Assembly (NCBI GenBank): GCA_027922465.2
Contig: BQMF02000026.1
Location: 310,001-374,000 of the forward strand
Direction of reading: 5' to 3'
Length of the DNA stretch: 64,000 nt
From: Turritopsis dohrnii
Lineage: Eukaryota; Cnidaria; Hydrozoa; Anthoathecata; Oceaniidae
The notes beneath the pieces are model-generated. The model saw only the letters and a list, made by a program, of their open reading frames with translations. It searched no databases and was not told where the DNA came from. Of this stretch, positions 951 through 5,595 are shown in pieces (position 1 is the stretch's first letter; the number at the start of each line of letters is the position of its first letter). The position numbers were made by a program, and so were the translations under genes.

Positions 951-3900
951 ATGAATAGCAATAGTTTTCCTATGCCAGCTATTGATCTTTCCGGAAAGCT
1001 TATCATTAAGGCTCAGTTAGGTAATGACATTCGAAAAATTCCAATCCATAATGAAGAAATAACTTATGATGAACTTTTACTGATGATGCAAAGATTGTTT
1101 CGAGGACGAATCAAAGGATCCGATGAAATAACAATTAAGTACAAAGATGAAGGTATGTAACGCCCATACTTGTTTTTCTGAAATAGATATAGATTTAATG
1201 GAAGAAATAAAGTGAAAATAAGTGAAACAAAATCATATAGTGTGGTGTGACAATTAGACAACTTTCAAATGTTTATATGCAAGGCCCTATCTTTCAGATT
1301 GATATTCCCTCTAGTTTGAATCATTGTAAATATTATTGTAAGACATCATAACAATTAATGCTCATATAAATGGATAAGTGTGTATTAAGGGAAGTCAAAT
1401 TTTGGCAGTCAGATTAAATGTATATATTGTTTAAAAAATCAAAGTTGTGTGACATAATGGGTGCAAACATTAGTGTTTGCTTGATAATTGCTATTGTATG
1501 CATGCTTTTTTATAAGAACACAACCCTCAGATTTGGCCAGAAAATAAGAACGGAATAAGAACAGCCTGATGCTCATCATTTCCGAAAATTAAAAACAGCC
1601 CAAGCCTGGATTTTCTTGCAAAAATAGAACAATCCATGATCTGAATTCTTTTGCAATTTCCTCTTAAGCTACTGATAAAGAGTTTACAACAACAACAACT
1701 TTCGGTAGGAAAAACTTGCAAACATTTGTGTCTTGTCCAAAAGTTTTTTCCGTCCGAAAATTTTGGAATTTAAGGAATTTGTAAAAATATGATTTTGGTT
1801 GATTTGAGGCCTGATAAGAAATACACTTTTGATATATCAGGCCTTCTTTTAAGAAGCCCAAAACTGCTCAGCACTTGCTCAAAAGCATTCTAGAAGTGTC
1901 TTGTGTTAAAAGTGACAAAACCAGTTAGGCTCTCAGAACATTACAATGGGTATGATTCAGAGTACAGTAGCAGTCGGTCAAGAGTTTTCTGCAAAAACAT
2001 TGTTTTGTGTTTTGTTTGGGGAAATATAGGAGAACTGCTCAAGTTTCTCCTAGAGTGCATTTGCTGCAATGCAGTAGCAAGTCTCAAGTGAGCTCTATTG
2101 CAAAATATTTTATCATGTTACAAAGTAAATGCAAAACAGACTTGACAAGGTGGTAGAAAATAAAAAAGTTGCATGACTGACGTGCAGTGAATACTTCATT
2201 TCCTAAAAAATCATCATTCATTCACACAAAGGTCATCTTGCCAGAAAGTAATATAATAGAAAACAAAAGTCCTTAGCATAGAAATGGTGTCATCATTCAG
2301 CTCATGAATGATTAAATGGTTCTACCACCTTTCAGGGAGAGATCTACAAATTTTTGGAGAAAAGTACCCAAGTTACAATTCTTATTTCTATTTTGTATGA
2401 TAACACAAAACTTATTTTGTATGTTTACAAAATAGACTGAAATAACATAATAACTCGTCTCATTAGTTTACTCACCTTTTTTGCATATCTCAAGCCTATG
2501 TTGTTTTTATATCCAGGGTATTTGGGAAAGGTGCACTTCTTGCGTAATTTATTTCATTATACTATGGTTTTAAAAAAATAGGAAATCCATCGTCCAAAAG
2601 TTTTTTTGTCCAAAATCCAAAAAGGTGCCCAAGGCTACCGGTTTTAATATATATCTATATTATTCATGAGGTTGAAAAAAAAGTGTGTCAGCAGTATTTT
2701 TATGAGATAATCTCCATGACAGAGCCAATCATTTTTTTATTTTGTTTGAACGCTTTGTTAACAATAAACAGCTGCTCCCTCCCAGACCATTTCTCAATTG
2801 TTCTATTTCTACTAACATCAGCATAGTGCAACTCTCAGCCCTATATATTACAGTTCATTATCTTTAAGTTTTTTTTGCTTTCTGTTATTATCAGTAAACT
2901 TCTTTTTTTCTTGGTTAGATGGTGATATGGTCACAATATTTGATAGTTCAGACTTGATGTTTGCAAAATCATTGAATCGTTATTTAAAGCTAACTTTATT
3001 TGGTGAGTTATTTTCTTTTGTTGTTTTGTAGAAAACAAACATAATATTGGTCTGAACATTTGTTTTCTCTGACAACAAACAGAGCAATCATTTTAGTGTT
3101 ACTTTTCAGGTGAGATATGTACTACTGGCTCTTTCAAACTATTAGATTGAAGAGTGGTGTTTCATAAACTGATAGCCATGTGTTTTGATTTTGTAGTAAT
3201 ATAATTACTGAAAACTGAAATCTCAACCAGAAAACCAACTTCTTTTTATCTGACTCCTGATTTTTTTTATGCAAACCACTAAAGTGTTATTATTAATGTG
3301 TCTTCGGGAAGTAATTGCATGATCAGCTCATAACATGCATGTATCATCAATGCATTCTTTAAACTTGATAATCTGATATTTTCAAGTGACCAGAAGCATT
3401 TTTTTTCTAGTAAATGGCAAGCCAGAACCATTACAGCACGATCAAATCAAGGAAGTGAAAACAGAGCTATTAGATATGCGTGAAAAAATCAACAATTTAA
3501 TCTCTCGATTGGACATATTTGCAGAAGAACGCACCTTTGACGATCAGTTCACTCATAATAATCACACCAATAAGCAAGCGAGTAAGTTGTTTCTTTTTTG
3601 TATATTATATTTATGAACTTTACACAATTTGTCAAATTGTGACAATTCCTGAATCAAAACAAAGAAAGTGCTTCATAGGAAAAGAAAAACAATACATCTG
3701 CTACACTTTGATTTCACTTCGATGTTAAGAAGGCTTTCTTTGTTTTGTTTCAGTGTTGAAGCCACCATGTTGTTGTAATGGTACCCAAACTTTTCATAAT
3801 GTTGGATCACATCATGAAAATGTTTTTCAACGAAACGGTCGTTATAATAAGCGTGTTCAACCCCATAATCACGAGCATTTCATTCCTGTTACTCATCCAT

Positions 3901-5595
3901 CTATTCCTTCGAAAGAAACGCAAGAACAGCAAGCATCACCGTTACACACATATAGTACTGTACCCGCATCAGTAGTTGTTGAAAAACATACTCCTCCATC
4001 TCAGTCAGTATTTTTGAAAGAAGCAAGAACACTTGAACCAACAACAGCATTTTCAAGCTGTGAAAAGGACGCAAAAGCTAGAGCACATTTTACAGACTCG
4101 ATGCGGCTAGTGATGAGTGAATATTACAAAAGCGATCAGTATGGTGAACTTGGTTACAAGAAATTTCCAAAATCTGTTGTTGTGAAATTATCCAAAGAAT
4201 TAGGTTTAACTAAAGTACAAGTAAAACAATGGGTTCGAAACAGAAACAAGCGAGAACGCGCCAAAACGTCCAAAAATTCTTCGACTATTGATACGCCGTC
4301 ATTTGTTGATATCCACATTCAAGGAAATGTTGTTAAACAGAAATCCATTTCCCCGAACAACTCTATCTCCTCCTCTCATCATCCTGCCACCACTGTAGAC
4401 AACACTGAACAGATCGGTAACCCAAAGTTTGAAAAAACTCAAACAACAGTAAAAGAAGAATTAGAAAACCCTCATGTGTTTATTTTAGCTAATCCTAACT
4501 GAAAAAACAAAGCTTATATTGTTTTGTTGATGTGTACCTCTCAGGCTGAATGTTATTTTAGGTTGTTCTGGTGTGAAGACGTTTCAATACAATTTTCGTC
4601 CTTTTCTTCCGCAACTGCTACCCTATTTTAATTATTAAATAACGCGGTGTTTGATCTCTTCCAACTCAGAGATCTGTCTGATAAAATTGATGTTACTTTA
4701 TTTCCACAGTATTGTTCATATTTCAAAATGCTTTTTATCAGAAGCTCCTGAAAAGATTCCTTCAGTTCTTCAACAAACAACACATCAGGCATCTGTCGAG
4801 AACAAAGCCCATGCAGCGTTATTCGATCCATTAAATGCCAAGTTGGAAGCTGACAGCACAACCAATGATCCTTTTGATGGAATTGGTAAGTCCAGTGGGT
4901 CTGCATACGTTGATTACCAAGATTCTGTCATTATATCGAATGTAAAAAATGAAGTAGCCATTTTACTTCAGTAGTATTTAAGTTAATATTTTGTATTTTC
5001 AGGAAAACCTAATTCCCTCCCAACAGTATCCCAGCATAGTTACGGCCAGTCAGTGGCAGTAGGATCTCAGCATCCAGCTACTATCGGTAACGCACAAGAC
5101 TACCAACAAGTCCAGCAACAGCAGCAGCAACAACAACAAACTAGCTACGTTACTTCTTCATCCAACCAGCAATATCCATCATCAACACCTCTATCTGATC
5201 CTAATTATTTCACCAATCCCCAGTCCACCTATCAAGCGCAATCGTCGATCCAGGCCACGTCGCAAGCATATGTAGTTCAACCGCAAGCCCAACAGTATTC
5301 TGGTGGAAATCAGTCCTATGTGCAACAAGGGCAACAGCAATCTTATCCTACCAGTCAATCATACTCTGCTCAAGGTCAACAGTCGAATACATATAGCCAA
5401 GAATATTCACAGCAATTACCAACTGGTTATGGAGCTCAAATACAGCAACCTGGTAATCCATACCGAACACCTAACGCACCTGGACGTTACCCTCAACCTG
5501 CTCAAGGTTACGATTACAATTCTGTTCAGCAGCAGCAGCAACAACAACAGTTACCTCCGAATGCAGTAGCGGGTGGTTTGTATGTCCCATACTAA
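951..5595 (+). CDS. TFG: TFG protein (TRK-fused gene), ER-exit-site scaffold, 5 exons
   Basis: TFG organises COPII carriers at ER exit sites and oligomerises through an N-terminal PB1 domain. Exons are 951-1152, 2919-3002, 3411-3581, 4742-4885 and 5003-5595; every junction is phase 1, giving 397 residues against about 400 in vertebrate TFG. The PB1 domain is split over exons 1-2 (LSGKLIIKAQLG, then TIFDSSDL). A coiled coil follows in exon 3 (VKTELLDMREKINNLI). Exon 4 carries the short FDPL motif region. Exon 5 encodes a Q/Y/P-rich low-complexity tail with two polyglutamine runs. I chose ATG 951 for its good context (ccgccATGa) and because the PB1 domain begins about 15 codons later; earlier in-frame starts are only TTG. 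A homeodomain-coding exon lies inside intron 3 and is described separately. I am sure of the family and fairly sure of each splice site. Confidence 0.95.
1505..1640. repeat. Partial copy of the 'ataagaac' inverted-repeat element, TFG intron 1
   Basis: The text around 1507-1640 (ttttttataagaac, ctcagatttggccag, aataagaacagcctga, gcctggattttcttgca) matches, with changes, the right end of the element at 52477-52946 in reverse orientation. It is a truncated copy. Confidence 0.6.
2767..2873. repeat. Short dispersed repeat, copy A (TFG intron 1)
   Basis: About 80 bp from 'cagaccatttctcaattg' to 'ttcattatctttaa' are repeated in the same orientation at about 5915-5998, just after TFG, with a handful of differences. 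No terminal inverted repeat was seen. Confidence 0.7.
3754..4502 (+). CDS. Atypical homeodomain exon inside TFG intron 3
   Basis: An open exon begins after a good acceptor (ttgttttgtttcag, ending at 3753) and runs 749 bases to a TGA at 4500-4502. About 105 residues in is a homeodomain: FTDSMRLVMSEYY as helix 1, then VVVKLSKELGLTKVQVKQWV and NRNKR as helices 2-3. W48 and N51 equivalents are kept. Position 49 is V and position 50 is R, not the usual F and Q. The helix 1-2 loop is about seven residues longer than the 60-residue standard. Flanks are low complexity and Ser/Thr/Gln rich. There is no in-frame ATG near the start. TFG exon 3 ends in phase 1 with a single A, and this exon starts with TG, so splicing exon 3 to it creates an ATG codon and keeps frame: PB1 plus coiled coil joined to a homeodomain, 401 residues. 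Otherwise it is the last exon of a nested gene with an unseen 5' exon. I cannot name the homeobox class. Confidence 0.75.

Follow-up and report, generated by a model that had tools for sequence, protein, structure and literature searches.

A homeodomain exon inside TFG intron 3 of the hydrozoan Turritopsis dohrnii, a probable alternative last exon

TFG is a secretory scaffold which, according to passages of one study, forms octamers through its PB1 domain and is mostly disordered along its length; hollow condensates are formed by fragments of the disordered part, not by residues 1-123, and Sec23 and Sec24 enter TFG condensates (PMC12009431). Here we describe the TFG gene found in a stretch of 64,000 nucleotides from the hydrozoan Turritopsis dohrnii (GenBank assembly GCA_027922465.2, contig BQMF02000026.1, positions 310,001 to 374,000 of the forward strand; hereafter the window), in which an exon encoding a divergent homeodomain lies within TFG intron 3, at 3754-4502. 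We consider this exon, with good probability, to be an alternative last exon of TFG, whose predicted product is a nuclear, multivalent transcription factor.

Among the described systems, TFG-TEC (TFG-NR4A3) of extraskeletal myxoid chondrosarcoma is likewise a joining of TFG to a DNA-binding protein; there it is a tumour translocation with a nuclear receptor as partner, whereas in the window it is a built-in exon and the partner is a homeodomain. In TFG fusion oncoproteins, oligomerisation is generally attributed to the TFG head. Judging by the title of a study by Lim (2012, cited in PMC4055444), the human TFG-TEC fusion indicates that a strong activator can result when TFG is attached to a DNA-binding protein. 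Alternative last exons that swap a functional tail are also familiar, giving one head and two tails through competing splice and poly(A) choices; compared with the usual cases, a secretory scaffold and a homeodomain protein make an unusual pair of roles. Both alternative last exons and homeodomain combinations have precedents; we know of no other combination of TFG with a homeodomain, and from the literature searches it also appears new. In open-licence PubMed Central (titles and abstract starts), no paper was found on a TFG-homeodomain isoform or on LOC100206891, the Hydra protein discussed below; neither the Hydractinia genome paper nor the siphonophore genome paper contains the term TFG in its main text, and a term search showed PB1 to be absent from the main text of a homeodomain review (PMC4901127). 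In the passages of the Hydractinia genome paper that bear on them, seven unclassified homeobox genes are given for H. symbiolongicarpus. Homeobox catalogues often rest on sequence models, and a homeodomain below cut-off, carried by proteins named 'uncharacterized' in Hydra and Rhopilema, may be missed or left unclassified.

TFG lies on the + strand of the window in five coding exons, whose normal product is an ordinary TFG of 397 residues. Exon 1 (coding part 951-1152; ATG at 951, donor AAG/GTATGT) carries the first part of PB1, and exon 2 (2919-3002; acceptor TAG/AT, donor TTG/GTGAGT) carries its remainder, in a frame continuous with exons 1 and 3. Exon 3 (3411-3581) encodes the end of PB1 and a helical segment, which we take to be a coiled coil, and finishes on a lone A, in phase 1 (GCG A/GTAAGT). 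The normal isoform continues through exon 4 (4742-4885; acceptor CAG/AA, donor TTG/GTAAGT), which carries FDPL, and exon 5 (5003-5595), which holds the glutamine (Q)-rich tail and the stop, as read from frame and translation. On exon 1 alone, a partial domain, PB1 (PF00564) is matched at E 0.0031 and 17.9 bits, below the cut-off of 23.6. Both isoforms have the N-terminal PB1 and the following helix, the latter corresponding to helix 107-145 in the model of the Hydra protein P0009; the alternative form swaps the whole tail after the helix for the homeodomain. The Q-rich tail is found in the normal isoform and absent from the homeodomain isoform: after the split, the normal tail has 245 residues at 22% Q, against 6% Q in the homeodomain tail. 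Across 35% of its 401 residues, the joined protein of the window is 89% identical to the TFG-like protein of Hydractinia symbiolongicarpus (P0011). An 88-base direct repeat, 91% identical, stands at 2780-2867, in TFG intron 1, and at 5912-5999, about 320 bases past the TFG stop.

The homeodomain exon (3754-4502, + strand) is 749 bases long, lies between exons 3 and 4, and is separated from exon 3 by an intron of 172 bases. A preliminary description of this DNA had proposed that the lone A of exon 3 meets an exon starting with TG that stays open to its own stop, and the letters agree: the frame spans 257 codons from stop to stop and closes at TGA (4500-4502). Translation likewise returned both of the products that it had foreseen, namely a frame-continuous protein of 401 residues with PB1, helix and homeodomain when exons 1-3 are spliced to 3754-4502, and the normal 397 residues when exon 3 is spliced to exon 4. 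The acceptor, which had been called strong, has 15 of 17 pyrimidines at -20 to -4; it ranks top among the CAG/TAG sites scanned at 3600-4742 and equals that of exon 2 (15) as best of the five in the locus, the others having 11 (exon 3), 11 (exon 4) and 12 (exon 5). Neither GT[AG]AG nor GTATGT, the donor patterns sought, occurs at 3754-4741. The sole AATAAA or ATTAAA between exons 3 and 4 is an ATTAAA at 4634-4639 (+ strand). It may serve the homeodomain transcript as poly(A) signal and lies about 130 bases past the stop, where such a signal would be expected for an alternative last exon. An open frame of 257 codons by chance was rejected, since the longest stop-free runs in random 64-kb sequences reached a mean of 132 and a maximum of 184 codons with the dinucleotide make-up of the TFG introns (n=40), and a mean of 169 and a maximum of 235 with the exon's own make-up (n=40). 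The phase match alone would arise by chance in one case of three, and the argument is carried by conservation.

In this context, the joined reading of PB1 and homeodomain is supported by predicted proteins of two other cnidarians. With the 401-residue joined protein as query, the first match was a Hydra vulgaris protein of 453 residues (P0009, E 4.8e-87, 'uncharacterized protein LOC100206891 isoform X1') and the fourth a Rhopilema esculentum protein of 471 residues (P0012, 'uncharacterized protein LOC135685676 isoform X1'). From the best 120 of the 825 matches of this search, and in total 131 proteins scanned by pattern, 117 carried the TFG-head pattern and 13 the homeodomain-core pattern (two of them the window's own); P0009 and P0012 were the two that carried both. 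PB1 (PF00564) is recognised in P0009 at E 1.5e-7, and in P0009, P0012 and the normal counterparts P0013 and P0014 over a range of E 1.5e-7 to 6.6e-9. The head of P0009 matches the solved structure 'Protein TFG' (9e7c_A) at E 9.4e-40, and its homeodomain tail is 42% identical to that of the window over 144 columns.

Each joined protein has a normal TFG counterpart. In Hydra, the first 158 residues of P0013 ('protein TFG isoform X2') are those of P0009 apart from one mismatch, after which P0013 runs into a normal TFG tail; in Rhopilema, P0014 ('protein TFG-like isoform X2') equals P0012 for 161 residues, and the contigs of the pair are listed as equally long. At the split residue, P0009 has Lys and P0013 has Thr, which are compatible with A/AR and A/CN, so that Hydra exon 3 would end in a lone A, as it does in the window. 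Moreover, P0007, from a contig of 109 kb, reads ...FPCFVLEEHVSSTSCQCNQ where P0009 has ...VPKENVSSTSCQCNQ, letters that would be expected if an intron ending in YTAG/ met an exon beginning with AR, in phase 1.

The homeodomain occupies residues 107-173 of the exon product (4074-4274, + strand), with predicted helices at 4095-4133, 4170-4202 and 4212-4283. The predicted structure shows the three-helix homeodomain fold, and by this modelled fold the domain is a divergent member of the superfamily, slightly below the sequence threshold; solved structures were matched weakly by sequence (best E 0.019 for the single sequence, 0.015 for the profile). Across 12 aligned sequences (P0002-P0009, P0012, P0129-P0131), W48 and N51 are invariant, and so is a G..G.K pattern in loop 1 (exon-product residues 130-135); we know of no other homeodomain loop with this pattern. 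In the model, loop 1 is 12 residues long (127-138), against 5 in the canonical homeodomain, and engrailed covers the 60 model residues 111-170 with only 53 of its own. The domain shares the three-helix fold, W48, N51 and extra loop-1 residues with divergent (atypical) and TALE homeodomains; TALE members have three extra loop-1 residues, whereas here there are about seven, together with N53, V/C49 and a PB1 partner, and membership in TALE was rejected on the loop count.

A first search gave six relatives, with identities of 40-82% across 21-59% of the query and with three of the six at 71-82%, and a profile search with the homeodomain tail alone brought the number to 11 proteins in all, including P0009 and P0012. 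The first six share a near-identical core, [AH]HFTDSMRLVMSEYYK...KLSKELGLTKVQVKQW[VC]RNRNKRERA. Beyond these families, the profile search, made over 5.8 billion proteins at E 0.001 and testing only proteins that share short query words, returned nothing. Neither viral contigs nor contigs of bacterial and archaeal genomes yielded a confirmed relative, which agrees with an animal origin of the gene. From their likeness, we label P0003-P0008 hydrozoan-type and P0129-P0131 scyphozoan-type. A hydrozoan-type profile (A1, seven sequences) aligned with a scyphozoan-type one (A4, four sequences) over 70 columns free of gaps (probability 97.9, E 4.4e-13), which indicates the same long loop 1 in both types. 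It is this profile comparison, and not the pairwise one, that supports kinship between the two kinds of tail, since the single tails of the window and P0012 match weakly (26% identity over 132 columns). Near the C-terminus, sequence comparison revealed the motif VKEELENPHVFIL (4449-4487, + strand), that is, psi-K-x-E and then P-x-V-F-[VI]-L, which by consensus would be SUMO-site-like and SUMO-interaction-like. This pair occurs in six of eight hydrozoan-type sequences (P0002-P0009; in P0004 and P0008 the end motif is missing) and in none of four scyphozoan-type ones. Given relatives 40-82% identical and the end motif in most hydrozoan-type sequences, the frame looks constrained.

Several observations weigh against an alternative last exon encoding a transcription factor, and three other explanations were considered. 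In T. dohrnii, the isoform is predicted from genomic sequence. The Pfam homeodomain PF00046 scores 20.4 bits in the window and 22.7 in P0012, both under the cut-off of 22.9, and is not listed for P0009 at E 0.01; P0131, at 23.3, passes. The usual residues of homeodomain helix 3 are W48, F49, N51 and R53; the window has V at 49 and N at 53. With Asn where Arg is usual and Val or Cys where Phe is usual, DNA binding may be weak or altered. These atypical residues, together with the long loop 1, favour an isoform that is real and uses the same exon, in which the homeodomain-like tail would instead bind protein or RNA on TFG oligomers at endoplasmic reticulum (ER) exit sites; a precedent may be HOPX, a member of the homeodomain family that part of one source describes as having no DNA-binding domain (PMC12608687). 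We regard this non-transcriptional role as unlikely, as W48 and N51 are retained in 12 of 12 aligned sequences and the third helix abounds in basic residues (RNRNKRERAK).

Nine of the 11 database relatives (P0003-P0008, P0129-P0131) have no PB1, and one of them, P0006, a protein of 403 residues that has its own Met and comes from a 2365-base contig, fits either an independent gene or a single-exon frame. These proteins could represent partial transcripts, or frames within one exon of a genomic contig; a free-standing gene would account for them too. TFG intron 3 could harbour a separate homeobox gene under its own promoter, which would either have a first exon that is short or non-coding and ends in A, or receive a trans-spliced leader, such as part of one source reports on some transcripts of Hydractinia and as known for hydrozoans (PMC11067881). 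The preliminary description had noted no ATG near the start of the exon, which holds within the exon, whose in-frame Met residues are only 116 and 120, inside homeodomain helix 1; it needs refining in that the junction A/TG itself forms an ATG at the exon's first base, so that any upstream exon ending in A would give a start codon and a private first exon would work in this species. This ATG is not conserved, however: at that position Hydra P0009 has Lys, not Met, and the predicted protein continues from PB1. Because of this Lys, a spliced leader or a private first exon is not our main reading; it is kept as a rival. In addition, the preceding intron measures only 172 bases and both named relatives are joined to TFG, and we consider a nested gene decidedly improbable.

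The remaining points concern the joined proteins themselves. The contigs of P0009 and P0013 are listed at 70.9 and 64.0 Mb, and the two proteins differ at residue 140; they are likely one locus in different assemblies. In Rhopilema, phase 1 is at odds with the letters at the split (P then T against P then E), and P0131 points to phase 2; by protein letters, the intron phase thus differs between the two classes. Of the conservation in relatives that the preliminary description proposed to look for, the joined protein design is there in Hydra and Rhopilema, and the phase is not shared by the latter. For Hydractinia, the named matches listed contain normal TFG only (P0011). The joined proteins of Hydra and Rhopilema are predicted models, and predictors can fuse neighbouring genes. 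That such mix-ups of naming or joining happen can be seen in the ray Narcine bancroftii, where P0037 and P0072 are named 'jagunal homolog 1-A' isoforms and have TFG sequences, P0037 with a listed Jagunal domain. Even so, it is very improbable that the joined proteins are artefacts of computed models and the exon, which has no intron of its own, an unused relic or retrocopy, as the acceptor is strong, six relatives and the end motif point to constraint, and the same join recurs in two cnidarian classes, each time with a normal TFG counterpart.

If 3754-4502 serves TFG as an alternative last exon, as anatomy, phase, predicted fold, tail conservation and the design predicted in Hydra and Rhopilema suggest, exon 3 (3581) would be spliced to 3754 and the transcript would end after the exon's own stop, probably at a separate poly(A) site a little beyond 4634. 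Use of the exon would replace the Q-rich tail of exons 4-5 by the divergent homeodomain, and skipping it would give normal TFG. Retaining PB1 and helix, the alternative product should self-assemble and could co-assemble with TFG; with the Q-rich tail lost and a DNA-binding-type domain gained, its likeliest role would be that of a multivalent nuclear transcription factor. The presence of a homeodomain with a basic third helix leads us to infer that it enters the nucleus and binds DNA; that it is expressed in T. dohrnii and mixes with TFG we likewise presume. The likeliest consequence would be an oligomeric homeodomain protein, not itself building hollow condensates and able to mix with TFG. If the isoform is used, one gene would yield two products that have an assembly domain in common, a scaffold of ER exit sites and an oligomeric protein of DNA-binding type, a link between secretion and transcription would become testable, and TFG fusion oncoproteins would have a natural precedent.

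A wider proposal is tentative, and we would sooner doubt than assert it. It holds that a secretory-scaffold gene also encodes a pre-oligomerised homeodomain transcription factor, kept since the hydrozoan-scyphozoan ancestor; that the two products mix through PB1 and helix; that TFG could retain the homeodomain form at ER exit sites, from which it would pass to the nucleus on release; and that the splicing ratio and the secretory state set its activity, as a natural, heritable counterpart of TFG-TEC.

Elsewhere in the window, no RNA family was found at gathering thresholds. Perfect 27-base inverted repeats (TACCGTAAAGCGGGGTGACTTCGATCA) stand 2.1 kb apart at 8026-10155, with inner inverted arms of 80 bases; by its look, the element is a non-autonomous DNA transposon, and the DNA around it resembles, by eye, an intron of a gene that we presume to be a peroxiredoxin. 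Broken, overlapping frames of a Gypsy-like long terminal repeat (LTR) retroelement occupy 15156-19944 (+ strand), an island of about 49% guanine plus cytosine; RNase H and integrase domains were found at 17407-19941, and the two frames before them matched no Pfam family at E 0.001; stretches there that resemble a zinc knuckle and a reverse transcriptase were seen by eye only. Minisatellite-like arrays are open in several frames at 23888-24800 (- strand) and 28235-28969 (+ strand). A MACPF domain at 47617-48159 (- strand, E 2.2e-8) marks a perforin-like gene. Finally, the start of a flavin amine oxidase lies at 60256-61490 (+ strand), with PF01593 at E 5.6e-20 on 61041-61487 after a frame that appears SWIRM-like by eye; we take this gene to be of KDM1/LSD1 type.

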